A DNA stretch of 64,000 bases, taken from Symbiodinium sp. CCMP2592. Lineage: Eukaryota > Sar > Dinophyceae > Suessiales > Symbiodiniaceae. The notes under the pieces are model-generated. The model made no database searches and was not told where the DNA came from. It saw only the letters and a program-made list of their open reading frames with translations. The stretch lies in the NCBI GenBank assembly GCA_905221615.1, contig CAJNDT010001322.1, forward strand, positions 1-64,000, read 5' to 3'. The position numbers and the translations under genes are program-made. This document shows positions 28,818 to 49,561 of the stretch, in pieces; position 1 is the first letter of the stretch; each line of letters begins with the position of its first letter.

Positions 28818-29006
28818 TTTTTGCTAAGCTCGGAAAAATCCAAAAACCTCCAATCGCGTACTCAAGAATGTTATTCAAGAGAAAAGTCGGCATCAGAATT
28901 ATGCAACGGCGAGACTCCATAAATATAGATATGAAATGATTCCAATCATACTCAATCACTCGCACAGTGGACTTTGTTGCTCGGGGCGAACCGGGCTGCC
29001 CGATCC
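28818..29006 (-). repeat. E2 split repeat B2 (3' terminus)
   Basis: A 189-bp repeat matching 29,447-29,635 with one mismatch noted (TTTGTTGC against TTTTTTGC). Its outer edge is the inferred 3' end of E2. The 207 bp between B2 and A2 are single-copy in this window. Confidence 0.93.
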
Positions 29007-29213
29007 AGGCTCGGGCTAGGCGCGTTCTCACGTTTGTGAGAGTTGCAACAACTTCGGGCGAAGCTAAAGTCACGAGAGTCAGCGACAGAAGTCGCCGCCT
29101 CGACCGAGGCGTTAGTCTCCGGAGGTTGGCAGAAAACTGAATGTTCTCCTTGGGAGCACAAGTCGGCGCTGCAAGCCGAAGCAACGATGTCTCGACAGGG
29201 TGTGGTGGGTGGG

Positions 29214-29446
29214 TGTCGAGACGGTTTGGCGGTCCCGCCCCCCCACCACTTGAGATGAATGTCACGGATAGGCCAAGCATTCAGAATGGCACGACACAAG
29301 AAATGGTCACACCAAAATACCGGTGCTTAGGGTGAGGTAAAGCACACGGGATAGGGATTAGGGTACTTTTTGTATTTTTGCAAGCTCGCCACATGTGGCT
29401 CGCCTCGCGCGCAAAAAGGGGTTGGTAGACAAGTCTACAACTGCTC
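29214..29446 (-). repeat. E2 split repeat A2
   Basis: A 233-bp repeat matching 37,711-37,943 with one mismatch noted (GTATTTTTG against GTACTTTTG). It includes a small hairpin GTAGAC-AA-GTCTAC at 29,425-29,438, close to the B1 junction. Confidence 0.93.
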
Positions 29447-29635
29447 TTTTTGCTAAGCTCGGAAAAATCCAAAAACCTCCAATCGCGTACTCAAGAATGT
29501 TATTCAAGAGAAAAGTCGGCATCAGAATTATGCAACGGCGAGACTCCATAAATATAGATATGAAATGATTCCAATCATACTCAATCACTCGCACAGTGGA
29601 CTTTTTTGCTCGGGGCGAACCGGGCTGCCCGATCC
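29447..29635 (-). repeat. E2 split repeat B1
   Basis: The internal copy of the 189-bp B repeat. It abuts A2 with no intervening base, as in E1 and E3, and lies about 30 bp beyond the RT-RNase H stop codon. Confidence 0.93.
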
Positions 29636-29668
29636 CCCCAAGCAATGCAGTACGGGAGCCCCCTTTGA

Positions 29669-31333
29669 TTACAAGTCGACAAGTTTTGTACCAGTAAGCG
29701 GGCAGTCACAATCCACACGCAATGCCCCAGCCTTGACAAGCTCATCCAGCTCGCCTCTTGACGGCGCATCGGCTGGGTTCGAAGCGGATGGCACACGAGC
29801 CCACCAAGCCCACGTGTGAGCATGCATCTCTAAGGACTCCCAAATCAGCAAAATATCTCGCATCGGTTTGCTAGAAGATGTACCCTTGATGTAGCTAAGT
29901 AGCACACCGTCGTTATCGATGAAGTACACACAATATCGTCCCGACAGTGACTGATGAAAGACCTTTCTCGCTGTGAGCACGGCGTAGGCCTCGACTGGAC
30001 CTATGATGTGCTGAAGGTCCCGGGACCAAGTCGAGACGACACTGTTGCACACATGGCAAGCAAAGTACTTCGGTTGTTGTTCTCGCGGGTCAAACATGAT
30101 TCCCCCTACTGTGTGGACAGATCCTTCGCTGGCGCCATCGGTAAAGACGAGAATCGGTTTCGGGGGAACCGAACAGGGCACAACCCTAGGAGCGCCAAAG
30201 GACAGTCGACTGACCAAGAAGTCAAAGGCCCTAACCTCCTGCTCGCCAAGACGGAACTTGTCGGCGTGCCTAGCCGATGAGGCTCGCAACTCGGCCAAAG
30301 CCAATTTGCCGGTACGTCCCATGATTTGCGAATCTGAGAACTGAATCCTGCCCGCGACACGGGCGAAATCTCTCTGCCGTACGACACCAGCTTTAATGCA
30401 TCCTTGTATGACCTCACACACCTCGCTCGCACGACCTTCTTTGTTGCGAACACGGATGATCGCATCGGGCGCTGAACTGCAGTCTACTTCAACGCCCAAC
30501 ATCGAACCAACCGAAGAGAAAGGGGCCAACTTCTCAAGGGAGGCACTAAACCCTAACATCTGGGACAGGAGCATCATTGTCGACATGGTGGAATCCTTAA
30601 GCAGCGTTGGCGTCATGACTGGGTAGTCATCATAAAAATTGCTCCACCACAAGTGAAGTTCGAGGCCGATCCTCCAAAACAACCGTGACATTCGATTGAA
30701 GTGAACCACCGACGCTGTGCTGCCGAAAGGTAGCGCTTTGGACTCGAACAAACCCACGCCAAGACTACTCGGGTCCAACAGTGCAATGATTGCATGAGCA
30801 CGGCTGCCTGGTGACAGTGGGAACTGACGATAAGCGTTCTTCAAGTCAAACGTAGTAAGCAAAGGTTCCCAAGCCCCGTTGATCCACAAAGGGTGGACAC
30901 GGCCCACCAATGGCGGCCCGTCAGGCATCGCGAAAAAGAACTGATGCTCTGAAGTGCATGCCTGGGTCCAGCAACGGCAAATGGCAATGATTTCGTCAAG
31001 GGCGCGCAAGTCAATCTTATCGGCATACGAAAACGAACCGTTGACTAGATTTTCCGAAAAATCATCAATCGGTCGAAGCTTCCTTTTTCCCGCTGAAGAT
31101 TGTACAACCGGAAACCTCCTAACCGGGACCCAATGGTCACCATGCCTGGCATGAACCTCTTCCTGCGTCAGAGGCCCTTCAAGAAGGTCGTCCGTCACTT
31201 CTTCCAAGGTCTTGTCCCAAAGTTCCTGAGAATGCTCGTTCAGACCCTCAGAGGCAACCTTGCCCAGGAGTGCCGGTCGCAAAAACTTGCTAGCATCAAG
31301 AAAATCCGCCTTGGTCCTCGCCTGTGGTCGCAA
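29669..31333 (-). CDS. E2 reverse transcriptase - RNase H
   Basis: A 554-codon frame. RT landmarks: RKLRPIDDFSENLVNGS (84-100), first palm Asp in TFDLKNAYRQFPL (163), ALPFGSTASV (200-209), the catalytic NFYDDYP box (Asp235, Asp236), and GFSASLEKLAPF then GSMLGVEVD. RNase H landmarks: VFTDGASEG (Asp399), GPVEAYAVL (Glu448), FIDNDGV (Asp473), NPADAPSRG (Asp522). All catalytic residues of both enzymes are present. The enzyme copies element RNA into DNA and removes the template. Upstream of the first Met the frame stays open and reads through sequence alignable to the E3 polyprotein linker, so the domain originally followed the MTase frame. Sequence order and the FYDDY box fit YR-type retrotransposons. 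Confidence 0.9.
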   Translation of the reverse strand: MRPQARTKADFLDASKFLRPALLGKVASEGLNEHSQELWDKTLEEVTDDLLEGPLTQEEVHARHGDHWVPVRRFPVVQSSAGKRKLRPIDDFSENLVNGSFSYADKIDLRALDEIIAICRCWTQACTSEHQFFFAMPDGPPLVGRVHPLWINGAWEPLLTTFDLKNAYRQFPLSPGSRAHAIIALLDPSSLGVGLFESKALPFGSTASVVHFNRMSRLFWRIGLELHLWWSNFYDDYPVMTPTLLKDSTMSTMMLLSQMLGFSASLEKLAPFSSVGSMLGVEVDCSSAPDAIIRVRNKEGRASEVCEVIQGCIKAGVVRQRDFARVAGRIQFSDSQIMGRTGKLALAELRASSARHADKFRLGEQEVRAFDFLVSRLSFGAPRVVPCSVPPKPILVFTDGASEGSVHTVGGIMFDPREQQPKYFACHVCNSVVSTWSRDLQHIIGPVEAYAVLTARKVFHQSLSGRYCVYFIDNDGVLLSYIKGTSSSKPMRDILLIWESLEMHAHTWAWWARVPSASNPADAPSRGELDELVKAGALRVDCDCPLTGTKLVDL

Positions 31334-31371
31334 CTCTCGCCTGAAGACCCCGGTGTGCTTCTGACTACCAA

Positions 31372-33312
31372 CTAAACTAAGTCAAACCCTTCCAAGAGCT
31401 CACTCAACCAATCCTTGTCAGGCCAGTCCATATCATCGGCAATACGCCCAATACGCTTCAGGAGCAACAAGCGCTTGCCTCGAAGCACACGGCCAATGTC
31501 AGGATCTAGCTTGCCTTTCATGTCTCCTTCGGCAATTTGCAGTTCTTTGGCCCAGCTAAGCCACAATTTCAACTTGGAGCACCGTTGTCGCTGAACCCAT
31601 TCCGGACCTTTGGTCAAGGCCTCGAACAATCGCCTTTTCACAATAGGTGACAGAACAGCCGAAGCAGCAAAAGGATGTAGCAAGTCTTTAGCCGCATCAA
31701 CGAACTCATCTGGTGTGGCAAAGACTCCCAAAGAAAGGCGAAATCTCTTACTCTCGTTACCCGCATCGCCACCCGCATCACCCCTGAGAAGAGACGTGGC
31801 GATGAGCTTGGATCCTGCTGGCACCTCGCCCAACGGGCGTATGAGGCACTGTTTGTGGTTCACTGGCGGAACCTGATCGACATCTACCTGCAAGACCTTG
31901 CCGAACTCGGGCAGTAGCGAAGCTTCAGGCTTGCCTCGCTTCTGCTGGGCAACACCAGCTGGCGTGGATGACAACGCCACGTCGGGGCAAGCAAGACCAT
32001 GGTGCCGCGCAATTGCCTGGACGACATGTTTGCAGAATTCGGGCGGATGCGTGACGACTCCGCCTTCCACTTGGCTATGGGAATGGTCGCCTTTGCACAA
32101 GCAGTTCAAGGACCTTAAAGCCTTGCAATTGGTCCTAAGTTGGCGGCGAAGCTTAAGGGCAGACCCGAAATTACAAAGATCGTAAACAACCTCAGAAGTT
32201 GAAGGCAATGCTTGCACATTGGTCAAATTCCAAAGAAGGCTGGCCTTAGGATGTTCCAAGGTCCAAGGTATTCCCCGTTTGTCCACGCTTTGCAAGAAAG
32301 TGCACAAGTGGTTGACCATGGAATCAGCCAAAGCGAGCCGATCAACAACTTTGGAATCGGTGGCTCCCACGGGGCTCGTGACCCCGTTGACTAAGTGCCT
32401 GAACGCCTGCTGTGGTCCGAACGTGGCATAAGGTGGCTCCGCGTGGACATAAAGAACTGGGTAGGTTTCAAGAACCTCTTCAAGGTAGGTCCAACTCGAC
32501 GCTTGCGCCAAATCAAGTGCACACAACTTGGACAAAGGGAGCCTGTGCCCCCCACGATCCACCGGGAAGACCTCAAACCCGTGTTGTTTGAAAACCCTAG
32601 ACAAGGCACCACTACGAGCAAACAATTCGATAACGATCCCTTGCACTGGACTCCTCGACGGATCGCCGATGTGCTGTGGTTCATATTCCTGCCTTTGCTC
32701 AAGAAGTGGCGGACTGCTGGTCCCATTCCTGAAGTCTGCAAAACACGCCTGCTCTGCCACCTGGTCGCCGGTGGCAGGGTACTGCGACGGAAGTGCAAAC
32801 CCCAAGGATTGCAACACAACCTTTTCTGAGTCCTCAAGCTTCTCACCTCCTTGTACCGAGTATCCGATAAGGACTATTCGCCTGCCTTCCCAACTCAGCG
32901 TGAGGTGCTTCTGAACCCTGGCCTGAAATCTTACGGGACCTAACCCTAAATCCAAGGTGGTTCCCAGCAGCTCCTGGCCATCAACTGTCAAGCGCTCTTT
33001 GCCAACATCGGATTGCACCCAAATCCCACCACCAGAAAACCGGTTTAGTGGAACAACTAAGTTTGGGATGAAGGCATTCTGGCTATCTGCATGCAATGCA
33101 GTCTGGTTGTCAACAGAAAGCAACAAGGAAGTAAATTCATGCCCGGGATGGGCATGCCGCAGAATTCTCGCTAGTATCCTTGTCGTGCTTGGGAAAACTT
33201 TGCAATTTCGCCGCAATCCTACCTTGACATGCACAAAAGCACCGCTATGGAATGCACTGCAAGACACGTCAGTGTTGCTCCGGCGTTCGCCGGTCAACTC
33301 GTCGTGCGGCAA
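31372..33312 (-). CDS. E2 dioxygenase-like - methyltransferase-like frame
   Basis: A 646-codon frame. Residues ~20-155 form a 2-oxoglutarate/Fe(II) dioxygenase-like module: His74 and Asp76 in TALHADSQN, NLVVPLNRFSGGGIW (84-98), distal His136 in RVQKHLTLSWEGRR and Arg144 or Arg145 (HxD...H...R). Residues ~226-430 resemble a DNA methyltransferase: IELFARSG (228-235), HAEPPYATFG (290-299), TLEHPKASLLW (351-361) and a trailing CKGDHSH motif. The Cys expected in a C5-methyltransferase active site is replaced by Tyr (PPY). Residues ~440-646 are a linker shared with E3, including VPAGSKLI and ending GFDLV. A stop follows, caused by what looks like a 5-nt insertion; RT continues in the next frame. 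The start codon here is TTG, so the true N-terminus lies upstream in another frame. Confidence 0.72.
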   Translation of the reverse strand: MPHDELTGERRSNTDVSCSAFHSGAFVHVKVGLRRNCKVFPSTTRILARILRHAHPGHEFTSLLLSVDNQTALHADSQNAFIPNLVVPLNRFSGGGIWVQSDVGKERLTVDGQELLGTTLDLGLGPVRFQARVQKHLTLSWEGRRIVLIGYSVQGGEKLEDSEKVVLQSLGFALPSQYPATGDQVAEQACFADFRNGTSSPPLLEQRQEYEPQHIGDPSRSPVQGIVIELFARSGALSRVFKQHGFEVFPVDRGGHRLPLSKLCALDLAQASSWTYLEEVLETYPVLYVHAEPPYATFGPQQAFRHLVNGVTSPVGATDSKVVDRLALADSMVNHLCTFLQSVDKRGIPWTLEHPKASLLWNLTNVQALPSTSEVVYDLCNFGSALKLRRQLRTNCKALRSLNCLCKGDHSHSQVEGGVVTHPPEFCKHVVQAIARHHGLACPDVALSSTPAGVAQQKRGKPEASLLPEFGKVLQVDVDQVPPVNHKQCLIRPLGEVPAGSKLIATSLLRGDAGGDAGNESKRFRLSLGVFATPDEFVDAAKDLLHPFAASAVLSPIVKRRLFEALTKGPEWVQRQRCSKLKLWLSWAKELQIAEGDMKGKLDPDIGRVLRGKRLLLLKRIGRIADDMDWPDKDWLSELLEGFDLV

Positions 33313-33464
33313 GAGTCAATCTCCTCTGGAGTGGGCAACCTGTCAGCCTCAAGCAAATGTTGTGAAAGGATTTCAGCGGAGGCACCGCCGGATGCATCAA
33401 CGCTCATACCCGTATCGGCTCCGGCCTGAGGGGAGGCGGAACCGAACGGACCTGAGGCACCTAG

Positions 33465-34678
33465 TCAAGAACCTCCTGCTTTCGGACAGTTGCGGTAATA
33501 GTGCCCAGATTTCAGGCAGCCAGCACGGCAGCATATGTGCAACCCTTTGTCGCACCTTCCTGATGTCACTCTGCGCTTGCACCTATTGAGATTATAATCC
33601 CAACAGATTGCGTACCCTTTAGGCGTGAAAGATAACCCTCCATCCGCAATCTCCTTAGGCATTGCAGCAGTGATGGAAGTGGTGTCTCGCTTCCCTTTGC
33701 CGCCCTTATGACCTTTACCTCCCGCCCTTGCGGGGCGTCCATGCGGGGTCAGGCCTTGGCGCTGCTGCAAGAAGGGGTTGCATTAGGTGCGCCACATCTG
33801 GGTGATTACGAGCTGTCTCGAAGTGCACATCACATGGCCTACCCGTCGCCTGAAGCTGTATTCCCTCTCGGGTGAGCTCGGCAAGTTTGATGAAGAATTG
33901 TCTGTCGGCATGGATGACCTGTTGCAAGGAAACGCGGCTGTACCCTGTCGGAGGTTCTCGGAAGCGGCACGCGAGAAGTTGCTCGGTCCAGGCGTCATGT
34001 AGCGTATAAGAGATGATTCCCGCTTGCTCCATCGGACTCCATCGCTAGGCCACGCCTAGTAAGAGCATACCGCATGAGCAAATCAGAGGAAATGTCTGCA
34101 TCCATCTTGTTGTTCACCAAGCCTTTTAGTCGAACATTTCCCCCGCTTTCTACGACAAGATGCCGGTCCTCCTTGAGCGTGGCCTGCTTGATTTCATCTT
34201 CCTTAGAGGTGCAGGTCGAAAGCTCGACGTAGACAAGCCGGTTTTCCTCATAGATCGCCACGCAACGATCCACGAGTCGATCAGATGGCTCAAGGGGGCC
34301 TCGGATATTTATCCCAGGCAAGCGTTTCTGTTGCTTGGCCAACCGGTCGGCCCTGTCGGGCTGAGCCAGTCTCTTGACAGGCCCGTCCTCAACACGCTCC
34401 ACTGACTGCCTCAACTCAGCCGAGGTGAGCGAGTAGGATTCATGGAACAAGCGTCGAAGTACTGACAATTCTCCCACGCTACCATTCCTACCCAGAAGAG
34501 TTGCAATGGAATCAAGAAAAGGCCCTTCATCCTGAGCACCAGGGGTGTATGAAGACGAAAAAGCAAACTTGGCCAATGTGTCAATACCCCCTTCGACGAT
34601 CTTCTGCAGGACAGCCTCATCAAGCCCCAGCGCGATGGCCCTCGCACGGAAATTTGCGGTGGAATCAGTGACCGACAT
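33465..34678 (-). pseudogene. E2 gag with Cys/His finger, one frameshift
   Basis: The ATG at 34,678 opens a 227-codon frame (MSVTDSTANFRARAIALGLD...) that aligns with E3 gag (MTSLTESRAAFEDRAAEVGLS...). Coding shifts frame near 34,000 to EQAGIISYTLHDAW and on to HADRQFFIKLAE, then again to a Lys/Gly-rich segment and the finger ICWDYNLNRC then RCDKGLHICCRAGC with a final His and Cys. The finger matches E3 in spacing (CWAFNMQCGC, CSRGLHLCAEPGC). Gag would package element RNA. The frameshifts make this copy non-functional unless recoded. Confidence 0.65.
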
Positions 34679-35189
34679 TGCAACGACTACACCCTCCACC
34701 TGCTCTGAGACGCACACTTGCTCACGCAGCATTTACACTTCGCCTCTGCACACTGTTGCTCTACAGCACCTCTGCAAAATTGATCGCTTCTCTCGGCATT
34801 CCGCGCGGCACACATCACAGGACCCTGTATTTGTTGCATGCCATAGCCTCGACACTCAAACGAGACAAGACTTTGCGATCCATAATGACACAAGTCACTG
34901 TTAAGCACGTCAACACAAAGTCTTGCCTCTCGCTAAGGGCCAATCGCCCCGGATCCAAGCGATCCTCTGGCGCTGCACTCAAGTCTCCAAGAAGGACTCT
35001 CACGATCCTTCAAGGCCATCAAAAGGTATTTTGCGATGCTGTGCCCAAAGTTCCAGCTCGGGCCCGAATCAGCCGACATGCGAGTGGAGGCACCAGCATC
35101 CACCCAACCCGAGCCCGCGCCAGCTCCTCTACCGGGTTGGATGTGGCAAACCCAAACCCACTCCGGTCCAGCCCGAACCAGCTCTTATC

Positions 35190-36909
35190 GGACCGGGTGG
35201 CACTTCTTGCACAAAGGATGCAAGAAGGAAACTCCACTGTTCATCTCAACGTAATTCGAAGAGATCTTTGTTCCACATGCAAAAGTGGCACCGGCCTCGT
35301 CGGCCACAAAATGAATGATCCTCGAGAGTTTGTGCCGGAACATACGACAATCACTCGCAGCGCCCTGTCCTCCAGAGCCCTTTCCTCGGCTCCGAGATCA
35401 CCAACGTTGTCCTCTTCGTCCTGTGAATCTTCCGACTCACTCACTCCGCCGTTGGATTCATAGTCGGGAGGATCACCCTCGGTCTCTGCTGAGGGCGCCG
35501 CCGCCTCACAAGGAAAATGTCCGCTCCGAGTGGCATCAGGCCTGAAACGATCCTCCCTGATTTCACCAAGGACTCTCTCCAGAGCTCGCACAGCACTCGA
35601 AATATCGCAGCAGCTCGGTCGGTGTGGTAACCGAGGGTACGACGCACTGCCTGATCGATACCAAATTTCCCGCACCAGCTGAGGGTAGTGCACTTGCACG
35701 AATGAGTGCCCAATTTGGTGAGGGCCCCGTGATCAAAACCTCCTTTGCTCAAAATGCCCTTAAGCCAGGATGCAGCTACAGTGGCGCTCGGTGGGACGAG
35801 TAGCCATTCTCCCGAAGCTCCTGTACCAGGGAGCAGCGGCACACCGCTGCCCGTCGGCATCTTGTGAACCTCCCGGAGCTTCATCCACACTCCTGCCCAA
35901 TCGAGTCCTGTGACACCTAAGCGTGGGCAGACCATGGGCAGAAGCATCGTCTTTCTCTCAGTCGTGAAAGACGTCTTTGATCGAAGAACCTCTCCTTCCA
36001 AGTATCCAGCCACCTCAGTGGCTAGACCACTCGGAGTGTCCAACTGCAAGTTTCCAAGGTTCATCCCATCTGAAAAACGGGCTCGCATGAACACCAAGCA
36101 AAGAAAGAAACCCGCGCAGATTCGATCAATTGCCCTGGCAGTCGGATCACAAACAAGGTTCTCCAAGAAAGCTACCATAGCCACCGTGAGTGGCGGCCTC
36201 CGAGTCTTCTTGCGCTTTGCGAGGTAGGTGAGCCTCGCTATGCCAATCACCCGACCGCTGAGCAAGCAATCGGCTCCACCTGTGACACCGAGGACGTGCA
36301 CAGAGAAAGATATGGATACAATGAAGCTCCTCAAGAAAGTCGGGGCAGACGAAAACTCGCAACCCTTGCAAAACTCGTATACCTGCCCCTCCTCAAGTGG
36401 GAAAGGATCCATGTCGGCCTGAACACTCCAGCGGATATACTCGGACCAGCCCTCTGATGCAGAGTACCAGCTGCCTTCCCAGCAAAAATGTGGCCGAGGC
36501 TTTCCAAGATGAGTGGTTCAAGTCTTTGCTCACCCCGAAGACGCCGGCCGATATCAAAGCTCAGAGGGGAGTGCATAATAATCACACCCCACTTCCTAAT
36601 ACCCGCGACCAGCTCTCGTTCCAGCTTGTACTCCCACGAAATCCCGTGCCAATGTTTAGCCATGTTCAATGGAGAGTCTCCCGAAACACCCGGTCTCTTT
36701 GCCTGACTGACGGACCCGGAAGATGCCGCTTCAGCTCGAGGTCCGGCTATCAGCGGCAACGGTCCCCTTGCAGCAGGGAGACGAAAAACTAAGTTCGTGG
36801 GCTCTCTGATTGTCTCCCACGTAGGTCTGAAAGACGACTGGTGACTCGATCTGATGCAAAAGGACAAGTGCGCATCAAGTGCAGCGGCATCCACAGGCAC
36901 GTCTCCCAT
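35190..36909 (-). pseudogene. E2 tyrosine recombinase, frameshifted
   Basis: Coding runs through three frames. An N-terminal region (36,909-36,331, WHGISWEYKLERELVAGI) aligns with E3 residues ~168-220. The catalytic region (36,412-35,441) has LVFMRARFSDGMNL (Arg) and GTHSCKCTTLSWCGKFGIDQ (His and Lys of an HxxK box), then LGYHTD. The segment holding the catalytic Tyr is missing at a frame break near 35,640. The sequence resumes as VRALERVLGEIREDRF (35,699-35,241 frame) and ends in a third frame with ATFACGTKISSNYVEMNSG and LCKKCHPV, aligning with the Cys tail of E3. The enzyme cannot be active as it stands. Confidence 0.65.
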
Positions 36910-37280
36910 GTAGGCTCAACAGGGATGCCCTGATCCACTGAGAAAGTGCGCCTCCGAAGCCACCTTACGCTACAAAGAGTCACTCACATAACCGTCAGAA
37001 GAAAACGATCTACCGAGTTCAAGAGCGAGCCAAGTATGACCGGGTGTTATGTGTCACAGCAACTTCACACACACCCAAGACCGAATGCGTCAGGCTTCTC
37101 GCAGTGAAAGAAAAATTTAAGTCCTAGAGCAGCACTCGCATTAAAGCGTGAGTTAACATGAAGGCACTCCTGAAATCGGCACACACGAACTTTTCTTATC
37201 CAAGCTGCAAAGCATCCGGACCTCGGTCACCCCAGCCAACCTTCAAGGACGGCAGGGCGCCCTTGCCCTTTGATCAAAAA

Positions 37281-37571
37281 CTACGGTGGGGTCCCAGGTG
37301 CTTCCGGATCCTCAGGCAAAAGCTGCCGAAGCTGCAACTGCACTTTGCTCAGCCCTTCAGCAATAGAGTTTGCAGCATGCTCATGTACCGAAGCACGACC
37401 ACTGAGCGTCGCGACCTTCTCACGCAGCTCCCTAAGCAGCTTCAAAGAACGCTTGATGTCTGCTTCGTTCTTTCTCATCTGACTCTCGAGTCGAGAGACC
37501 CTCTGAACTAAGGCCTCCATGAGCTCCACCGCAGGAGAGCCACTTTCGTCGGATGACCCCCTTCGATCCAT
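37281..37571 (-). CDS. E2 coiled-coil leader protein
   Basis: A 96-codon frame starting MDRRGSSDESGSPA at an ATG. Residues ~16-60 (ELMEALVQRVSRLESQMRKN and on) have heptad spacing of Leu/Val and many charges, typical of a coiled coil. It is the first frame after repeat A1. E3 has a 56-codon frame in the same place beginning MDGAGAQ with LLHDLEERVLEALSDVLYRA. The protein may aid multimerisation; that is inference. Confidence 0.5.
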   Translation of the reverse strand: MDRRGSSDESGSPAVELMEALVQRVSRLESQMRKNEADIKRSLKLLRELREKVATLSGRASVHEHAANSIAEGLSKVQLQLRQLLPEDPEAPGTPP

Positions 37572-37710
37572 CTGCCGCGGTCAACGGGACCACACGGCGT
37601 GCACGACCTAACAGCACTTCGTGTTAGGAGCACTTGAACCTTCTAGATGCACGCTACTGGCCCCAAGGCTTTCCACGGCTCTCTAACCGCACACCCCCGT
37701 CAAGAACTTT

Positions 37711-37943
37711 TGTCGAGACGGTTTGGCGGTCCCGCCCCCCCACCACTTGAGATGAATGTCACGGATAGGCCAAGCATTCAGAATGGCACGACACAAGAAA
37801 TGGTCACACCAAAATACCGGTGCTTAGGGTGAGGTAAAGCACACGGGATAGGGATTAGGGTACTTTTTGTACTTTTGCAAGCTCGCCACATGTGGCTCGC
37901 CTCGCGCGCAAAAAGGGGTTGGTAGACAAGTCTACAACTGCTC
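37711..37943 (-). repeat. E2 split repeat A1 (5' terminus)
   Basis: A 233-bp copy of A. It ends at 37,943, the inferred 5' end of the element. A promoter would be expected here or just upstream, but none is recognisable. Confidence 0.93.
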
Positions 37944-38019
37944 GTGTAGTGTAGCCAATGCATGTGTGATTATTTAGAGCTTCTACAGCTGGGGTTGGGT
38001 ATGTAGGCAGCTAGGTAGC

Positions 38020-39096
38020 TCATCCAGCCGGTTTTCCAGATCGCCCTTTTTGCCTTCCATGTCCTTCCGCAAAGCATGGTCCTTCGGCAGGTCGTAGCAA
38101 ATATTCGCGGCGTTGTACTCTTTCTTCAGCTCTTTGCCTGAGTTGGGAAAAGCTTGATTGGTTTTTGTATGGGGGCTTTGAGGGTCCAGTGGTTAAGACG
38201 AACCGAGACACGGCATTCATCCAAAAGCTCTTTGGGTGTCTTGGGCGCCTGGATCAAGGCTTTTGCCTTGGCTTTGGCCTTGCTTTTCGGGTTTTTTCTT
38301 GGGGGCGGCGGCGGTGGCGTCGGCCGATCCTCGGTGCGTAGAGTCAGGTAGAGCAGGAGTACACCACCAAACCGTGCATGCGTGGAACCTTTACCTCTAG
38401 CCCCTCAATGCTGACTCGGTGCCCGAAGGATCCAGGCCCCGGCACTCCGTTCAGCCTCATCAACGGGGCCACGGCCTTGGCACTGGCCTTCAACTTCGAC
38501 TTGATTTCGCCGGTCTGGGAAACCTTTTCGGATTCTTCCACGTTCTTCTTCTTCCGGCAAACATACACGATGGATTCGAGGCAGTGAGGGGCGTCGGGGT
38601 CAGGGGTTCCACCCTTTCTGACTATGCTTTCGATCTTTGTCCTTAGATGAGGAGGCAAATAGCATCTCAGAATCAGAGTGTTGTGTTTAAAGGATTGATA
38701 GTAATATTGCAAACATTGCAGTGCAATCAGGGTTCGCACTGAATCCTCTCGCAACCATTTCCTTCACGGTGAGCTCCTCATAGCCACTCTTCACCTCGGC
38801 CGATTTCGTCTTGGTGATGATCAGCTGGGCCTCCGTGTTGTTCATGTTCTCGCCCTCCTCGAGCCATTTCGCGAACACTTCGTGCTGTTCCTCGGCTAGG
38901 GTGCACATCTCTATACACTCGAGATGTAGCCGAGCATGCATGCTATAACTCGACAGGTTTCGTCTTTGCTTCCGGTCCACAGCTTAGTCATTTCGGGGAA
39001 CTCCGAGCCCTGGCTGTCCATTCGCCGACCGAACTTCATCCATTGAGCACGGTGGGTCGACGAGTTGGGCCCCTTAGGCTTCGTGGTCTTGGTCAC
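38020..39096 (-). pseudogene. Unknown dinoflagellate-type reading frames
   Basis: Minus-strand frames in order: THRAQWMKFGRRMDSQGSEF and EMTKLWTGSKDE (39,096-38,911); EEQHEVFAKWLEEGENMNNT and KSGYEELTVKEMVARGF (38,980-38,687); LRTKIESIVRKGGTPDPDAP (38,754-38,344); QLRQRAEERVQRREYLL (38,220-38,020). The plus-strand complement at 39,110-39,260 is a CT-rich stretch that on the minus strand reads as Glu/Lys-rich sequence. I recall HRAQWMxF and W...GENxN phrases from repeated dinoflagellate proteins of unknown function. The frame changes and lack of a complete ORF suggest a decayed copy or exons. Confidence 0.4.
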
Positions 39097-39337
39097 AGAG
39101 GTTGTGGCAGGCGGTTTGGCCTTTGGTGGCGGGGTCTCGTGGTCTTCATCCCCCTCCTCCTCCTCTTCATCCTCCTCTTCGCTTTCTTGCTCCTCCCCGT
39201 TCTCATCCTCCCCATCCGACTCCTTCTCCTCGTGCTTAACCGAGGCTTTCGCAGGCGGGGCCGGCGGTGCGGCCGGCGGTGTGGCCGGCGGGAGATGACC
39301 CAGCCACGCTCACTGTGCAGAGAGCCATATTGCAGGA

Positions 39338-40342
39338 GTGGCGCCAAAGGCGGGAGCCCCTCCGCCGCCGAGGCACGCGGCGGCGGCGCATGTCGAACAC
39401 CTACGCGGCATCCTCCCGTCGCAACACGACTGCGATGTGCTACTGTCGCTGCCGATGTCCTTGACCGCGGGGTCGCTTCTTCGCATCAACGTTGACCAGT
39501 TTGGTTGTGACATATGCAGCTTCGCGGATCGGGCAATGCGCCAGCGATGCTGCACGGAGGAGGAGGCCTGGCGACTCTGCGTCAATCCGCTCATCGCGAT
39601 CAGTGCAGCGCTGGCAGAGCTTTGTGAGCCGCTTCAGCACCTTGCGGATGATAAGGCTTATGACTTCTCGTGGCGCGAGCTCGCAAGGCCTCAGGTCTGG
39701 TGGTGGCTGCTCGTGGACGAAATGGTAGCCCAATGGCAGCATGCAGACCAGGCCACTCTGGACACTACCATGGCGAGGGATGGTAGCTTTATTGTGATGG
39801 CATTAGGTGGCCCGGGACGGCATCTTTCACCACTGCAGTATTGCAGCGCCCTTCTCCCGGCGCAGGTGCTGCTGTTGGTGGTTCGGCTACTTGTGGATCG
39901 GCCACAGTCCTACCCGCACTTGGAGGTGGCGGAGGTGTTGCGGCCGATGAAGGGCGCCACAACCATGTCGGGGTCCGCCTCTCAGCCACCTTTGCGGCTG
40001 GTGATATTTGCCCCTTGCAGTGGCAAGTTGGGGCGAGCTACCAGGGCCGCCTCCGCATTTACCTCCCGCTCTCGGAGGAGGCTCTGGCGGCTGCCGGCAG
40101 GCCTCTTGGCTAGCGCCTTGGCTAGAGTTCGGCAGTGGACTCAGCAGGGAGGGTACGATCTACAAGCTGCGTTGGCCATTTGGCTGCCTGGGCCCAAACG
40201 AATTACGATGTGGTATCCGGAACGCTTCTACCTGTTGGGAAGTCATACCATGACTGGCCGCTTTGCGGAGATCGTCCGGCGAGACTTCGCTGATGCACCC
40301 ATGGGCCTCCGTATCCTGGGAGTCCGTTTGACCGTAATATAG
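39338..40342 (+). CDS. Hypothetical protein, the only sizeable plus-strand frame
   Basis: A 334-codon frame from an ATG, with an Ala/Pro-rich start, then LLSLPMSLTAGSLLRINVDQ, a Cys/Trp-containing helical stretch (CTEEEAWRLCVNPLIAISAA) and WWWLLVDEMVAQWQHAD. After residue ~215 coding character seems to pass to other frames (for example GDICPLQWQVGASYQGRLRI in the frame of 39,841-40,113). I do not recognise a family. Its 3' end contains the 21-bp phrase shared with 25,004-25,024, so it may be part of a repeat. Confidence 0.35.
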   Translation: MAPKAGAPPPPRHAAAAHVEHLRGILPSQHDCDVLLSLPMSLTAGSLLRINVDQFGCDICSFADRAMRQRCCTEEEAWRLCVNPLIAISAALAELCEPLQHLADDKAYDFSWRELARPQVWWWLLVDEMVAQWQHADQATLDTTMARDGSFIVMALGGPGRHLSPLQYCSALLPAQVLLLVVRLLVDRPQSYPHLEVAEVLRPMKGATTMSGSASQPPLRLVIFAPCSGKLGRATRAASAFTSRSRRRLWRLPAGLLASALARVRQWTQQGGYDLQAALAIWLPGPKRITMWYPERFYLLGSHTMTGRFAEIVRRDFADAPMGLRILGVRLTVI

Positions 40343-40801
40343 GTGTACGTAGGCCGTATGGCCAAATGACCGTGAAAAAAGACATTGGCCGTGAAAAACC
40401 ATATGGCCACGAAACCAGTGTGAATTCACACGGGGCCTTGTGAATTCACGCGGGGGCTGGGAATTCACAGGGTGGGCTTGTGAATGTACAGAATTCGTTT
40501 GCTATGAATTGTACAGCGCGTGAAACAGTAGATTGTGAAGTTTCACTCTGTGTTTGGGGGTTTGTTTCTGTGCAAAAAAAGTCTTTTGCACATTTAGCGT
40601 GTCACACCCCCACAGCGGTTCGATTTAATCCGTCTATACCCAGATCGGCAAAAACGGGCGGTTCAAACCTATAGCTCTAGAATATTTTGGCTCAGAAGAA
40701 GAAAAACAAACTTCTGAATTTCGGCTCGATCCGGGAGAAAAAATAAGAAAGACGCTCAAAGCCTTAATATATGCCCACATATAGTATATATATATATATA
40801 T
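40343..40801. other. No gene supported; left flank of E3
   Basis: Contains repeated phrases around GTGAATTCAC (40,410-40,490) and GGCCGTATGGCC / GGCCGTGAAAA, then AT-rich sequence. An 11-bp spliced-leader-like phrase lies at 40,684-40,694 and a (TA)n run at about 40,783-40,801. Confidence 0.5.
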
Positions 40802-40982
40802 TTATTTTCCCTTTGTGCAAAACACCGGGCGTGAGAAATTAAACGAATTGATATGTGAAACACAGACTCCAATATCTTTCGGAATATAAAAAGAATCGTC
40901 AACCAAATATACATTCATATGCAGTCGAAGACGCGCCACTCTCTTTTTCACAGACTGGGGAGACGAGTGCCCACGTTGGCCG
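40802..40982 (-). repeat. E3 split repeat B2 (3' terminus)
   Basis: A 181-bp repeat, identical by eye to 41,295-41,475. The outer edge at 40,802 is the inferred 3' end, abutting a TA-rich flank. Confidence 0.95.
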
Positions 40983-41105
40983 GGCTTAGGGCCCAGGGCA
41001 ACGGTTTGGTAAAGTAAAGGAAGCTACTGCACGTTCCAGCGAGAGCACTTTCTCTGTGAGACCACGTTGGAGCACCTCTCCGAACGATGGGACTTGGGCG
41101 GGCGG

Positions 41106-41294
41106 GACGAAAAATTCTACAAAACTTTGGGGGTCCCACCCACCTCTCCCTTGAGCAGAAATGTTTCGTGAGAAACACTCTTAACATAGCTCACATGAGA
41201 CTGTCACACACATGCCCTAATTTATTTCGAAAGCGAAATAAATTTGTTTTGCAGGGAAAATAAAAACTCATCCGTGCACGCGCGGAGATAGTTC
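41106..41294 (-). repeat. E3 split repeat A2
   Basis: A 189-bp repeat, identical by eye to 49,373-49,561. It contains a hairpin at 41,220-41,243 with a 10-bp stem (ATTTATTTCG) and a 4-nt loop. A 123-bp single-copy gap separates it from B2. Confidence 0.95.
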
Positions 41295-41475
41295 TTATTT
41301 TCCCTTTGTGCAAAACACCGGGCGTGAGAAATTAAACGAATTGATATGTGAAACACAGACTCCAATATCTTTCGGAATATAAAAAGAATCGTCAACCAAA
41401 TATACATTCATATGCAGTCGAAGACGCGCCACTCTCTTTTTCACAGACTGGGGAGACGAGTGCCCACGTTGGCCG
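41295..41475 (-). repeat. E3 split repeat B1
   Basis: The internal 181-bp B copy, directly adjoining A2. It ends 16 bp short of the stop codon of the polyprotein frame. Confidence 0.95.
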
Positions 41476-41491
41476 CCCCTGTAAAACGTGG

Positions 41492-44400
41492 CTATGTACT
41501 GAGGGCGCACTTAAGGGTCTCCGTCAGAACGTCTGCCGAACATTCGGCACGGAGATCCTGGCCCATTGAGTACACACCTCGAGAAGGCGCATCAGCTGGG
41601 TTGCTGTGCGACGGCACACGGTCGTAGTAAAAGAAGGCCTGTAAGTCAAACTCACGCTTGGCTGCCAGGAAAGCCATCGCACTGCCTACTGGGTTTTCTG
41701 ACCAGCACTTCACGAACGCGCCGTGCACACCTGAGTTGTCCGTGTACACTACAACGTTCCTCTGAGACAGGTGACATTTGAAAAGCTCAAGTGCCACTAC
41801 CACTGCAAGAGCTTCTAGCTCAAAGATCACTGTCTCTCTGTCGCGCCCGAAGCAACTCAGCAGAACCTTAATCAAGTCACTAGGGACGGTCGCCCCAAAC
41901 CAACTTAAGATTCTCCCGTCAGCATCGTAGCAGACGCCTCCAAGCCCACTGTGCCCGGACGGCTCGAAGGAAGCGTCTACAAAAACAAGGCGGTTATCAC
42001 CTAAGTCCCTAGAAACGACTCTGGAGCAACCACTCTGCAAAAGCTCTACAAGGTGAGTGGCACCCCACCTGAAGCGCTCGGACACACAGAAGCTCTTCGA
42101 AGGCTTGTCCGACAAACAGTGAAGCGCCTGCCGTGCCAGTCTGCCGAACAACTGGCCACTTGCGAACTGGGCTCGCCCTCGAATCTTTTCAAGCGTTGTC
42201 GCATCAATGCTGCCCCGAGCGAGAACCTCTTCAAGAGAAGCAATGATTTCGTTTCGGCGTTTCAGGGTATTCTTCAACAAGGCGTAACCCCGAATGGCGT
42301 TTCCCACATCAAGCTCAATCCCTAACACCTTACAGCAAGTGGAATAGGGGAGAAGCTTATCGGTGGAAACCTTCCACCCCAGGAGCCTAAAATACACACT
42401 GATTACCAGCTCGACGTGCTTTGCTTCGCTGCTGCGGGCGATGCTAAGGTAGTCGTCAAAATAGACGGACCAAACTAGGAACAGCAACTTGACTGCTACC
42501 GTCCAGACGGCCACTGCGCATCTGATGAACGCCGTAACTGAAGCTCGCGATCCGAAAGGGAGAGCCCGCTGCTTAAACACAGCGGGCTTCTGGCTCCTTG
42601 GGTCGTAGATCACGAAGTAGGCATCTCGAGCAAATGCGGTGTCACTGAGAGGCAGTTGTTTATACGCAGCCTTAAGGTCCCACGTTTTGGCATTCATCGC
42701 AGACCGGACACGATGGGCCTTGGCGCGGGCTAGCCAAGACGAAATCATGCCCGCCACCACGTCAAGAGTGTGGACCGTGACTTGCTCCGATTGCGTCACT
42801 GCAGCATTAACTCTAGAGGCCCTATAATTATCGATTGGCCGCACCTTGGGAGCGCCATCAACCTCTCCCTGAACCACACCAAAACGGCGGGTCAGCGTGG
42901 CTCCCTCCGGAAGCGTGCTAGGGTCTATGGGTCCCTCGACTACACCGGCGTCTACTTCCTTAAGGGTCGCTTGCAGCACACCTTCGTCGATGACAGGATC
43001 ATCCGCTGGCCCAACAGTCGCCAGAGTGGCTTCCCTTGCACGATCAGCACCTTGTCGCAAGTCTGCTTCGAGCATGCTGGCTGGTCTGAATTTCTTCTTG
43101 AAGAATCCACTTTCAGGCAACTTACCAACTAGGTCGAACCCTTGCACTAAGTCGTTGAAGAGGCCTTGGTCAGCGTGCTCGGCATCCTCAAGAAGGGTCC
43201 TGAACAGGATCAAGCGTTTTTGTGCAAGGATGTGACGCCGGTTATCGGACATTCCCTTTCGCAGCGCATCCTCTTCACCAACGAGGGAGTTCGCCCGTGC
43301 AATCCACTTTCTGATCAGCTCGGTCCGATGCTGCCCCAATGCGTGCTCGCCCAACTCAAAGTTTTTACGAACAGCGGTTTCAAGGTCTGCTGGGAGCAGG
43401 TTCGAAAGGCTGCTGGGGTGTTCAACATTGCACGCCTGCTCGACGAACTCCTCGGGCGACCACCTGACACCAAACTCAGCTGTAAACTTCACGGGCTGTG
43501 AGGCTGCATTGGTAGTGGCACAAGCAGATGTGACGAAGCCGAGCTCGTCCATGATCGCCCGGTCACATTGCTCGAGCTCGTCCAAACCTCCCGGGAGGAA
43601 TGCAACTAGTACAGCACGATCTCCTTCCCAGCGCTCAGTCGCATGAGGCACACGTGGGTTGAAGCAAATTCCCCCGCCGTCAAAGGAAAGCACCGTGCCC
43701 ATCACTCGTGTGCCGTCTATGGTCCTCGGCGAGCTGCCTGCTTTGTCAGCAAGCCACAGGCCACCTCGTTTGAACGACGTAATAGGCAGCACAAGGTTGT
43801 TAGAGTTAGGGTCGTTATGAGCATCCACATGTGGCTCAGCCAGAAGGTTCACCGTGAATGCTATCGCTCCAAACCTGTGCCACGGAGCTTGCTCGCGTAC
43901 ATACCGGCATGCCAAGGCGGTGGTCCAAGGGCAGCGCAGAGTTGAGTTTCGGACACCGACCATTGGACCATGGCTGTAGCCTCCGGAGAACCACTGGTGC
44001 GAGTCCTCCGTTTGGATACCTCGGGCCCTGGCTGGAAGGACTTCGGGTGTCTGTGACAGGACTTCGAACATGTCATCGGCCGTGAGCTCACCAGGCTGGC
44101 GGCGCGACATAATTTCGTAAGCTAGATGTTCACATTTCTGCGCATCGGCAGGCGGTGGTTGCGCCAACACTCCCGAACTCGTTAAACCTACCTGAGGCTT
44201 AGGACAAAAGGGAGCAGGCGGCAAAGGAACCCAAGCGGGACTAACCTCAGGATGACTATGTACCCCTTCGGCATCTGGCTGCACCCCTTGTGTGGAGATG
44301 CTAAGGACCTTGCTTCCAGCAGGAATGGAGAGCAGGTCCACCGACAGAGTGGACCCGGCAGGGGGAGTCCACTCCTCCGTTAGGACTTTCCGGCGCTCAA

Positions 44401-45286
44401 GGCCACTGACACAAGCAGGATCGCAACACCCTGAAACCATGACCCGGGTTTTGAACTCTGAGACCAATGGCAAGACGCGTTTGCTGGCCTGAACTCCGGA
44501 ATACACGCGGGCTCCGGTTACTAGGTTATCAAGCTCGTGCAAGGATTGCGGCGCGTCGGCACAGCCCAGATCAAGCAATTGTTTTCGCAGCAAAGTGGAC
44601 ATCTCTCGTGCGAGGGCCCAAGGATAACTAAGCTCGGCAGAGGACTTAGCGAAATCCCAAGAAGCGTGCGAATGCTTGCCGTCGCAAGTGCGTTGAAGGC
44701 AAAGGAAGGCAGGCAGTGTGTGCACCAACAGGGTCGCCTTCTTTCGGGAGTGGCCAAACATGCACTGGTGCAAGGTTGTGGCGAAAATTGGTACGTCTGT
44801 GAAGAAATCTCGCCACCACTTGGTGGCCCACAAAAATGACTGAAGAGGCCCTTCAACTGAAAATAAAATCCCTCGCATGTACATCATCTTGCAGGCACGA
44901 GCACAAAATTCGAACAAGCGGTTGGCCTGGTTGACCCGAACTTTGTCTGCACCTCTCAAGGAAGGAAGCCCACGCGGATGCAAGTCATCACGAAGCCCGG
45001 CACCGCGAGTGGCAGTACCAGCCGGCGGTGACATGTGCACATAGACCAGGTTAGGCTCATTAAGAAGCGAAAGGAAGTGTTTTTGGCCCTCAGCAGTGCT
45101 AAGGTCCAGTGATACAATAGGACACACAGCTCCCTCGACCCGCGCATCCACAGCAAAAGAATCTTTCATTCCACATGCACGAAGAGCCGCAGTGAACCTC
45201 CCGGCCCCTGAGCAAACCTGAATGCAAAATGCTTCAGCGATGCTGAGTTTGGCCACACGTTCAGTGGCACGTCCAAGGAAGGACAC
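41492..45286 (-). CDS. E3 polyprotein: MTase - dioxygenase - RT - RNase H
   Basis: A 1264-codon frame. MTase-like, residues ~18-235: QVCSGAGRF (23-31), HMSPPAGT (84-91), SVEGPLQSFLW (143-153), CDGKHSH (201-207); Ala stands where C5-methyltransferases have Cys. Linker with IPAGSKVLS. Dioxygenase-like, ~455-570: His486 and Asp488 in EPHVDAHND, NLVLPITSFKRGGLW, His548 in RVPHATERWEGDR and Arg557. Shared linker ending QGFDLVG (~715-721). RT ~770-1000: KVRPIDNYRAS, TWDLKAAYKQLPL (Asp870), ALPFGSRASV, VYFDDYLS (Asp944, Asp945). RNase H: VFVDAS (Asp1104), FELEAL (Glu1156 or 1158), YTDNSG (Asp1183), NPADAPSRG (Asp1232). The frame's first codon is GTG. Upstream it is continuous with gag except for a single TGA at 45,328-45,326, so expression by readthrough is possible. 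Confidence 0.88.
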   Translation of the reverse strand: MSFLGRATERVAKLSIAEAFCIQVCSGAGRFTAALRACGMKDSFAVDARVEGAVCPIVSLDLSTAEGQKHFLSLLNEPNLVYVHMSPPAGTATRGAGLRDDLHPRGLPSLRGADKVRVNQANRLFEFCARACKMMYMRGILFSVEGPLQSFLWATKWWRDFFTDVPIFATTLHQCMFGHSRKKATLLVHTLPAFLCLQRTCDGKHSHASWDFAKSSAELSYPWALAREMSTLLRKQLLDLGCADAPQSLHELDNLVTGARVYSGVQASKRVLPLVSEFKTRVMVSGCCDPACVSGLERRKVLTEEWTPPAGSTLSVDLLSIPAGSKVLSISTQGVQPDAEGVHSHPEVSPAWVPLPPAPFCPKPQVGLTSSGVLAQPPPADAQKCEHLAYEIMSRRQPGELTADDMFEVLSQTPEVLPARARGIQTEDSHQWFSGGYSHGPMVGVRNSTLRCPWTTALACRYVREQAPWHRFGAIAFTVNLLAEPHVDAHNDPNSNNLVLPITSFKRGGLWLADKAGSSPRTIDGTRVMGTVLSFDGGGICFNPRVPHATERWEGDRAVLVAFLPGGLDELEQCDRAIMDELGFVTSACATTNAASQPVKFTAEFGVRWSPEEFVEQACNVEHPSSLSNLLPADLETAVRKNFELGEHALGQHRTELIRKWIARANSLVGEEDALRKGMSDNRRHILAQKRLILFRTLLEDAEHADQGLFNDLVQGFDLVGKLPESGFFKKKFRPASMLEADLRQGADRAREATLATVGPADDPVIDEGVLQATLKEVDAGVVEGPIDPSTLPEGATLTRRFGVVQGEVDGAPKVRPIDNYRASRVNAAVTQSEQVTVHTLDVVAGMISSWLARAKAHRVRSAMNAKTWDLKAAYKQLPLSDTAFARDAYFVIYDPRSQKPAVFKQRALPFGSRASVTAFIRCAVAVWTVAVKLLFLVWSVYFDDYLSIARSSEAKHVELVISVYFRLLGWKVSTDKLLPYSTCCKVLGIELDVGNAIRGYALLKNTLKRRNEIIASLEEVLARGSIDATTLEKIRGRAQFASGQLFGRLARQALHCLSDKPSKSFCVSERFRWGATHLVELLQSGCSRVVSRDLGDNRLVFVDASFEPSGHSGLGGVCYDADGRILSWFGATVPSDLIKVLLSCFGRDRETVIFELEALAVVVALELFKCHLSQRNVVVYTDNSGVHGAFVKCWSENPVGSAMAFLAAKREFDLQAFFYYDRVPSHSNPADAPSRGVYSMGQDLRAECSADVLTETLKCALST

Positions 45287-45325
45287 TCGCTCCTTCCCAG
45301 TCCGAAGCTCAGGGGCCCTAAGCCC

Positions 45326-46543
45326 TCAAGCGCCGCTTTTCTTGTGATGCTCCTGAAGAGAGTGAGGCTGCAAGCATCCCGGCTCTGCGCACAAGTGCAG
45401 CCCGCGCGAGCATGCACTCCCCGGGGCGGCGTCTGCACAGCCGCACTGCATGTTAAATGCCCAGCACAAGCGTTCACCATCTTTGTTCTGGCTCCACTTT
45501 CCAATCAACTCCTTCGGCACACGCAGCCTAGCCCCACCTTTCTTACCTTTCCCTGTGCTTTTGCCCTTCTTACCTGGCTTATTCCCTTTGTCATCGGCCT
45601 GCTGATCCTCGATCTTCCTTTTGAGCGGAGGCGGCGGGTGCTTAGGTTTTTCGGGAATGGCAAGCGGCAGAAGATGAAAGCTGACATGTGTGTCATCGAG
45701 AATGCTCTCGAAGGCACGGTCCAATGGTCGGACCCCATCCGCGCCTGTCTTCAGGCTACGCACCTTCTCAGCGATCCTCGTGAAAGCCGCTCTGTCAGCG
45801 CGGAGTGCCTGAACCACACTAACCTTTGCGTAGTTAGGCGGCGGCGCGTCCTGGACTCGCTGGATGAGCAGGCTATGATACATGTTCATAGCATCGTAAG
45901 AGCAGCAGCCGACGAGGTCGAATGCGAGCGCCCTTCGGCGGAGCGCTTGAACCAGCTCCAGCTCTCCGTGGGTATCACATGTGGCCTGCTGCGGCTTGTC
46001 TCGCACTGTCAAGGAGCCACTCCCATCCAACGAAACCTCCTTCACCGCCTTCTTAAGCTGAAGTTCATGCTGACGCGTGGTGAATTTGTTTGGATGCTGG
46101 TACACAAGCGTGTCTTGTTGCAGCATGCCGTACACCAAAATGTACGCCTCGAATGCGACCTCTTCCACTCCACGGTGCGTTAACCCTGTGAGCCGGGCCC
46201 GCTGCCTTGTGATGCGAGCTTCGCGCTCAGCAGGATTCAGTCGCTGGGATGTTGGATCATCCCCTTTTTCAACTTTCTGCTTAAGATCTGCAACAACCAT
46301 CGTGTGAGCCTCAAAGATCAGTCGCTTTGTGGCAGCGACGACACCAGCGTTGATTACTCGAGTACCAAAAAGCTCGCGGACCTGATCATTGGAAGGCGTA
46401 GCCCCTGGCGGCACTGCCGCAAAAGCTAGACGGGCTAGACTGTGGATGCCGGATCCAGTGAGGGCCGCGATGTCGTCGGCAGACAATCCGACCTCGGCCG
46501 CACGATCCTCGAAGGCCGCTCGGCTCTCGGTAAGAGAGGTCAT
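45326..46543 (-). CDS. E3 gag with Cys/His finger
   Basis: Started at the ATG at 46,543 (MTSLTESRAAFEDRAAEVGLS), because E2 gag starts at the same place in the alignment; the open frame extends upstream to 46,873 without homology. The ~405-residue product has a helical N-terminal domain, a long charged Lys/Gly-rich segment (KRKIEDQQADDKGNKPGKKG) and a C-terminal finger: RLCWAFNMQCGC, CSRGLHLCAEPGC, then His. Finger spacing fits a CCCH-like nucleic-acid-binding fold. Gag is expected to form the cytoplasmic particle. It ends in TGA followed in the same frame by the polyprotein. Confidence 0.75.
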   Translation of the reverse strand: MTSLTESRAAFEDRAAEVGLSADDIAALTGSGIHSLARLAFAAVPPGATPSNDQVRELFGTRVINAGVVAATKRLIFEAHTMVVADLKQKVEKGDDPTSQRLNPAEREARITRQRARLTGLTHRGVEEVAFEAYILVYGMLQQDTLVYQHPNKFTTRQHELQLKKAVKEVSLDGSGSLTVRDKPQQATCDTHGELELVQALRRRALAFDLVGCCSYDAMNMYHSLLIQRVQDAPPPNYAKVSVVQALRADRAAFTRIAEKVRSLKTGADGVRPLDRAFESILDDTHVSFHLLPLAIPEKPKHPPPPLKRKIEDQQADDKGNKPGKKGKSTGKGKKGGARLRVPKELIGKWSQNKDGERLCWAFNMQCGCADAAPGSACSRGLHLCAEPGCLQPHSLQEHHKKSGA

Positions 46544-46996
46544 GGCACTGGCACGGCTCAAAACAGCTAAACTCGGTAGTGGCACAGCGCTATTGAAAAG
46601 ATGATATTCCGAAACACAGGCTCGTACGAAGGCACGCAGTTTAGGAAGCAGTGTTTCCCAACTGAACGCATATTCATCATTCCATCCTGTATTCCAGTCA
46701 AGACCTAGAAGCCATAGCAATCTTGCATGTGATGTATAAACCCTTCGGCACCGGCACATCTCGGCGCAGCCGCAGTGCACGTTCACTCGGCCCTCTTGAG
46801 CACAGGAACATGTAGGCGCGCTCAAGTTGGTTGTAAGTCTTGCGGCCGGCACGTCTCGGCCACGTAGTCCCATCGGTCACTTACTCGATGGAGGCTGTGA
46901 ACATGCAACAGCGACTCTCCACAAACAGACATTCACTTTGCAGACCACAAGTCGTCTGCCCTGTATTTTCTCAGGCGATGCCTTTCAAGTGCACCT
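46544..46996 (-). other. E3 spacer between recombinase and gag
   Basis: About 450 bp. Its distance keeps YR and gag in the same frame, but at least three stop codons interrupt it, near 46,999, 46,987 and 46,879. It may hold a promoter or an intron for the gag transcript; no motif is recognisable. Confidence 0.4.
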
Positions 46997-49183: not shown

Positions 49184-49189
49184 AAGAAG

Positions 49190-49360: not shown

Positions 49361-49372
49361 GCACTACCCCCA

Positions 49373-49561
49373 GACGAAAAATTCTACAAAACTTTGGGGG
49401 TCCCACCCACCTCTCCCTTGAGCAGAAATGTTTCGTGAGAAACACTCTTAACATAGCTCACATGAGACTGTCACACACATGCCCTAATTTATTTCGAAAG
49501 CGAAATAAATTTGTTTTGCAGGGAAAATAAAAACTCATCCGTGCACGCGCGGAGATAGTTC
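49373..49561 (-). repeat. E3 split repeat A1 (5' terminus)
   Basis: A 189-bp copy of A, with the ATTTATTTCG hairpin at 49,487-49,510. The inferred 5' end is at 49,561. Confidence 0.95.

Follow-up and report, generated by a model that had tools for sequence, protein, structure and literature searches.

Predicted TET/JBP-like dioxygenase and methyltransferase-fold modules occur in opposite order in two tyrosine recombinase retrotransposons of Symbiodinium

The closest described relatives of the elements studied here are the dinoflagellate SymbioDIRS-Dnmt3 retrotransposons, for which the available excerpts of the original description (de Mendoza et al. 2018, PMC5890265) report two coexisting forms, distinguished both by domain order and by the relative order of recombinase and Pol. 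DNA transposons and Helitrons that bear TET/JBP enzymes are known from fungi, and the available sections of that 2025 fungal survey report no retrotransposon carrying such an enzyme (PMC12730594). Here, we analyze a 64,000-nucleotide stretch of Symbiodinium sp. CCMP2592 (contig CAJNDT010001322.1, positions 1 to 64,000; hereafter the window), in which two tyrosine recombinase (YR) retrotransposons on the minus strand, E2 and E3, each encode a predicted TET/JBP-like dioxygenase domain together with a domain of methyltransferase (MT) fold, arranged in opposite order.

In E2, a 647-residue open frame (31,372-33,315, minus strand) reads dioxygenase (residues 15-178; 32782..33273) and then MT-like domain (residues 223-443; 31987..32649), as placed by hidden Markov models (HMMs). 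In E3, the same models place the MT-like domain first (residues 29-264; 44534..45241) in the 1277-residue Pol frame (41,492-45,325, minus strand), followed by the dioxygenase (residues 434-600; 43526..44026) and by reverse transcriptase (RT)/RNase H (residues 801-1270). BLAST aligns the two dioxygenase blocks at 33% identity over 154 residues (E = 4e-24), with a score of 79.0 bits against 19.6 bits for the best of 200 shuffles. The MT-like blocks are 24-27% identical (E about 3e-6) and score 38.1 bits, against 25.4 bits for the best of 200 shuffles. Altogether, these results confirm that the swap of domain order between E2 and E3 is real. An earlier note made from the letters alone had claimed both the opposite order and the dioxygenase alignment, which are borne out, and had concluded that one module moved relative to the other, which the swap supports. 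A further protein hints that the two modules have had separate histories: P0020 reads dioxygenase-MT, and in sequence trees its dioxygenase groups with the E2 type (support 93/90 and 92/78), while its MT groups with the E3 type (91/83). Since approximately unbiased (AU) tests do not reject the opposite grouping for either module (p 0.163 and 0.237), we name neither as the one that moved.

The fold prediction that the earlier note had proposed as a check came out in favor of its reading. AlphaFold predicts the E3 dioxygenase as a double-stranded beta-helix (predicted local distance difference test, pLDDT, 88.9). In a Foldseek search of the PDB with this model, ranks 1-13 are all TET2 and CcTet chains, and VIA-align places NgTET1 at the top, tied with AlkB structures less than 1 Z unit away. 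Judging from the fold match and the secondary structure, the HxD motif and the distal His would meet in one pocket. These residues, with the associated Asn and Arg, are H75, D77, N80, H137, and R146 in E2 and H499, D501, N504, H561, and R570 in E3. The earlier note had their identities right, but its numbering is offset, with the E3 positions counted from 45,286. Across 82 dioxygenase domains, the metal-binding His is present in 80, the Asp in 81, and the distal His in 79; the 2-oxoglutarate-binding Arg at His+9, which corresponds to CcTet Arg385, is kept in 75. Like hTet2, 81 of the 82 have Asn at Asp+3, the position that reads N4 of 5-methylcytosine, and an aromatic residue is present at Arg+6, as in the TET enzymes. 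The domains differ from TET2, CcTet, and NgTET1 in their short core (an HMM match of about 165 residues), in the absence of His or Arg at Arg+8, in a spacing of 62 residues from the first to the distal His in E2 and E3 against 50 in CcTet (His326 to His376), and in Pfam scores below cut-off. Specifically, in a 20-domain alignment, most of whose members are 25-34% identical to E3, eight domains match Tet_JBP (PF12851; best E 7.2e-4), and full-protein scores of 12.2 and 16.6 bits lie under the gathering score of 34.9; E2 and E3 themselves give no PF12851 match at E 0.5. Four of these 20 domains match phrog_274, annotated as 'DNA endonuclease V', in PHROGs (best E 4.9e-4).

The second module also has a recognizable predicted fold. 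AlphaFold models the E3 MT domain as a class I C5-cytosine MTase fold (pLDDT 85.7), in agreement with the 41 best Foldseek matches and with VIA-align. The MTase-like block of the earlier note thus stands as a predicted fold, but without the catalytic Cys of motif IV, which is Tyr in E2 (EPPYAT; 32428-32430) and Ala102 in E3 (SPPAGT; 45020-45022); Glu158 is kept in E3. This Cys is missing from four of the five distinct YR MT domains (E2, E3, P0020, and P0022) and kept in P0012. Compared with HhaI, DNMT1, and DNMT3, the domains share the predicted fold, the motif VI Glu and, in many relatives, a Pro-Cys motif IV; they differ in the loss of that Cys from E2 and E3, in an additional Cys/His set, and in the lack of a sequence-profile match. 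In particular, PF00145 was found in none of 15 MT domains at E up to 5, a PDB sequence search with the MT alignment returned nothing useful, and one of the 15 matches phrog_363 ('DNA methyltransferase', E 0.0078) in PHROGs. The additional set comprises Cys188, Cys214, His218, and His220 (E3 numbering), is near-invariant in MT-fold domains from both YR and Copia proteins, and is a possible metal site, perhaps for zinc. To our knowledge, it lies outside the classical C5 MTase motifs.

The earlier note's setting of two YR retrotransposons, correct as far as it went, is too narrow, as the same pair is found in Copia-type polyproteins. A search seeded with P0021 yielded 117 proteins including the seed, for a whole set of 139 proteins including the window frames; the Copia counts below mirror this seed rather than frequencies, and the Copia class is known here from protein sequences, not from long terminal repeats. 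Within the set, 63 proteins combine MT and dioxygenase with Copia domains (55 as MT-dioxygenase-Copia integrase-Copia RT and 8 as MT-dioxygenase-Copia integrase), and another 46 Copia proteins have the MT without the dioxygenase. Profile comparison finds the YR and Copia versions homologous for both the dioxygenase (E 1.1e-35) and the MT (E 1.9e-9), with crossed controls at 0.33 and 0.52. Of the dioxygenase-bearing Copia proteins, 21 have a named source organism, in every case a member of the genus Symbiodinium; MT-only Copia proteins come from Durusdinium and Cladocopium too. In an unrooted tree of 98 Copia MT domains, a single group of 62 takes in all 56 domains from dioxygenase-bearing proteins, together with six that lack the dioxygenase (fork support 80/93); this is most simply explained by one gain and some losses. 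Motif IV Cys is present in 74 of the 98 domains and in 34 of the 56 dioxygenase-bearing ones; it is replaced by Phe, Tyr, Ser, or others in 22/56 of the latter, against 2/42 of the MT-only domains. This link between dioxygenase and Cys loss (Fisher p 8.5e-5, 98 domains) is inseparable from shared ancestry, the tree needing 4 dioxygenase and 7 Cys changes, and was rejected as an independent signal. Together, the order swap in E2 and E3 and the recurrence in Copia speak clearly for modules travelling between unrelated retroelements.

The assignment of E2 (28818..37943) and E3 (40802..49564) to YR retrotransposons holds on their own architecture. Both carry split direct repeats in the order A1-open reading frames-B1-A2-B2, with pairs 99-100% identical, as in DIRS/Ngaro-type elements (E2: A1 37711-37943, B1 29447-29635, A2 29214-29446, B2 28818-29006; E3: A1 49373-49564, B1 41295-41475, A2 41106-41297, B2 40802-40982), and on the minus strand both run from a recombinase-like frame through a gag-like frame to Pol. 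RT and RNase H, also expected of DIRS/Ngaro-type elements, appear as Pfam matches below cut-off at the expected places, namely RVT_1 in the E2 region 29744..31123 (E 1.1e-3), which is homologous to the E3 RT and has its own frame (29669-31381), and RVT_1 (E 5.9e-5) and RT_RNaseH (E 1.8e-3) in the E3 region 41516..42925. De Mendoza et al. (PMC5890265) note that the RTs of Symbiodinium DIRS elements give poor alignments to Pfam. The E3 recombinase-like region (47510..48589, within frame 46997-49189) shows by eye Arg, Lys, HSLK, GHH, and Tyr motifs and is conserved with E2 and with P0013, a CCMP2592 protein whose dioxygenase block is 99.4% identical to that of E3; the motifs (Arg, Lys, HSxK, GHH/GYH) are partly kept among relatives. 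Neither Pfam (to E 0.5) nor a PDB sequence search (to E 10) matched this region, so the motifs seen by eye and the repeat pattern are what support the recombinase assignment; a PDB sequence search with the RT region likewise returned nothing useful.

The two elements differ in intactness. E2 is damaged, with recombinase, gag, and pol scattered across several frames: its recombinase-like frame (35441..36517; 29% identity to the E3 YR, E 4e-24) appears by eye to run on at its 3' part in another frame, and its gag-like fragment (33995..34732), homologous to E3 gag, is broken over frames. In E3, recombinase, gag, and pol each lie in an open frame, and the gag-like frame (45326..46876) shares its frame with pol, a single TGA (45326-45328) standing between them. 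Read-through of this stop may be implied, or else splicing, as suggested by P0011, a relative in which gag and Pol are joined. This Symbiodinium sp. CCMP2592 protein is the best match found for residues 1-660 of the E3 Pol frame (94% identity over 91%).

We propose, at roughly even odds (about 0.5), that these elements encode a TET/JBP-type oxidase of pyrimidine C5-methyl groups that works on element DNA in partnership with the MT-fold domain, and that the new copy is thereby protected. In this proposal, each Pol would place an Fe(II)/2-oxoglutarate dioxygenase beside a C5-MTase-fold domain, both upstream of RT/RNase H, as laid out in E3 (in E2, the RT has its own frame). The dioxygenase would oxidize 5-methylcytosine as first choice and thymine as second, on either the cDNA or the chromosomal copies of the element itself; the MT-fold domain may bind the target and perhaps flip it. 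Action on cDNA is suggested by the position of the modules in Pol next to RT, and has been argued for the Dnmt3 elements of dinoflagellates in the available parts of PMC5890265. Relatives with a motif IV Pro-Cys may also write 5-methylcytosine, and the E2 and E3 oxidases would use 5-methylcytosine made by the host, or thymine. The resulting mark would keep the host from silencing the new copy or from recognizing it as foreign. Activity, substrate, a DNA rather than RNA target, timing, and benefit are what we infer here, and it may be, as the earlier note suggested, that the element modifies host chromatin or its own DNA as it integrates. A broader version, in which YR and Copia elements share a self-encoded cassette that writes 5-hydroxymethylcytosine (5hmC) or 5-hydroxymethyluracil (5-hmU) on their own DNA and feeds the modified bases of dinoflagellates, we put forward tentatively and consider rather doubtful; in it, selection for the cassette as a unit would follow from the order swap and the traffic between element classes.

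The most serious alternative, though in our judgment an unlikely one, is that the domain is a JBP-like thymine hydroxylase that turns thymine into 5-hmU in element DNA, the MT fold being a DNA-binding scaffold and nothing more. It overlaps with the second-choice substrate of our proposal and would match a base already present in dinoflagellate genomes: PMC11071213 reports that most repeat classes of Breviolum minutum are enriched in 5-hmU and that 5-hmU and accessibility are anticorrelated. However, the strongest enrichment it reports is on Maverick DNA elements, and some LINEs show none. The loss of motif IV Cys from E2 and E3 fits a substrate other than self-made 5-methylcytosine, the base contact at Arg+8 is not TET-like, and NgTet1 is reported to act on thymine too (PMC12344493, in part). 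On the other side stands the hTet2-like Asn at the 5-methylcytosine-reading position, and the likeness to JBP in substrate was set out with a comparison made up of sequences other than JBP.

Somewhat less probable is a complete write-and-oxidize enzyme, in which the MT makes 5-methylcytosine and the adjacent dioxygenase carries it to 5hmC or beyond on element cDNA. The Pro-Cys of P0012, the Cys of the 34 dioxygenase-bearing Copia domains, and the presence of both modules on one polyprotein speak for it, as does a phage precedent with separate genes described in the available part of PMC12730594. For Cys-bearing relatives it overlaps with our proposal, but since E2 and E3 both lack the motif IV Cys, writing followed by oxidation by one polyprotein is unsupported for these two elements themselves.

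A still weaker candidate, ranked below the TET/JBP reading and improbable in our view, is an AlkB-like demethylase that strips alkyl groups off the RNA or cDNA of the element. AlkB domains in the polyproteins of plant RNA viruses are thought to remove alkyl groups, and retrotransposon replication passes through RNA. The near tie of AlkB structures with NgTET1 in VIA-align agrees with this, as do the matches in the viral structure set BFVD, which include RNA virus polyproteins alongside JBP1/TET-annotated proteins of Sylvanvirus and a Caudovirales phage. Nevertheless, the first 13 Foldseek ranks belong to TET2 and CcTet, the Pfam matches go to Tet_JBP with no AlkB family listed, and HxDxxN with an aromatic Arg+6 is the TET pattern. 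Finally, that both domains are kept as non-catalytic, nucleic-acid-binding parts fits the frequent loss of motif IV Cys in YR (4/5) and dioxygenase-bearing Copia MT domains but is very improbable, because a mere binding fold would not need the conservation of a complete set of metal- and 2-oxoglutarate-binding residues in 71 of 82 domains despite their divergence.

We also searched for a viral source of the modules. None of 50,697 phage records matched E3 Pol by tblastn at E 0.1, and no relative was confirmed among viral contigs scanned with the E3 dioxygenase or with P0021. Elsewhere in the window, a 2161-residue open frame (55682-62167, minus strand) contains a Tpt1/KptA RNA 2'-phosphotransferase-like domain at residues 1611-1796 (PF01885, E 4.7e-6, above cut-off) and no further Pfam match at E 0.5. 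A satellite array of 207-217 bp units (50328-54107) consists of two blocks, that at 50.3-51.3 kb being inverted relative to that at 51.76-54.1 kb, and coincides with a sharp change in GC skew. A 168-bp direct repeat (5520-5687 and 5758-5925; 99.4% identical) is possibly the end of another element; it adjoins minus-strand open frames (5950-12356) that show no Pfam match at E 0.05 and no significant dioxygenase or MT homology.

Several known systems resemble E2 and E3 in part. With SymbioDIRS-Dnmt3, as given in the available text, they share the dinoflagellate DIRS-type setting, repeats arranged around the coding region as A-coding-B-A-B, a Pol in which RT is accompanied by a C5-MTase-type domain, and order variants. 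However, the SymbioDIRS DNMT is a recognizable Dnmt3 (PF00145, key residues conserved), whereas the MT domains of E2 and E3, with neither a PF00145 match nor the catalytic Cys and paired with a dioxygenase, fall outside that family; the words TET, dioxygenase, and hydroxymethyl have no occurrences in the main text of PMC5890265. Other DIRS elements carry a Dam-type adenine MTase and likewise are YR retrotransposons with a DNA-MTase-type domain in Pol (PMC5890265, PMC6338049, both in part), but Dam is structurally unrelated to cytosine DNMTs (PMC5890265), and dioxygenase does not occur in the available text of PMC6338049. The fungal TET/JBP transposons, according to the excerpts of PMC12730594, resemble E2 and E3 in encoding a TET/JBP-type dioxygenase of their own, one believed to work on the element's behalf; those are DNA transposons and Helitrons, whereas here the domain lies inside a retrotransposon polyprotein beside a C5-MTase fold. 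In the open-licence PMC literature, so far as its available portions go, we found no description of a dioxygenase and MT pair in retrotransposons, and no named enzyme that makes dinoflagellate 5-hmU. The dioxygenase domains are concrete, expressible candidates for that enzyme, or at least for one that places the mark on repeats, where 5-hmU is enriched in B. minutum (PMC11071213, in part). DNMT-bearing dinoflagellate retrotransposons and TET-bearing DNA transposons were thus known, and the TET/JBP-like and MT-fold pair in retrotransposons appears, against these partly available sources, to be new. If our proposal is true, a retrotransposon pyrimidine oxidase would join the known writers, DNMT and Dam, and both sides of methyl chemistry would be found on one polyprotein.

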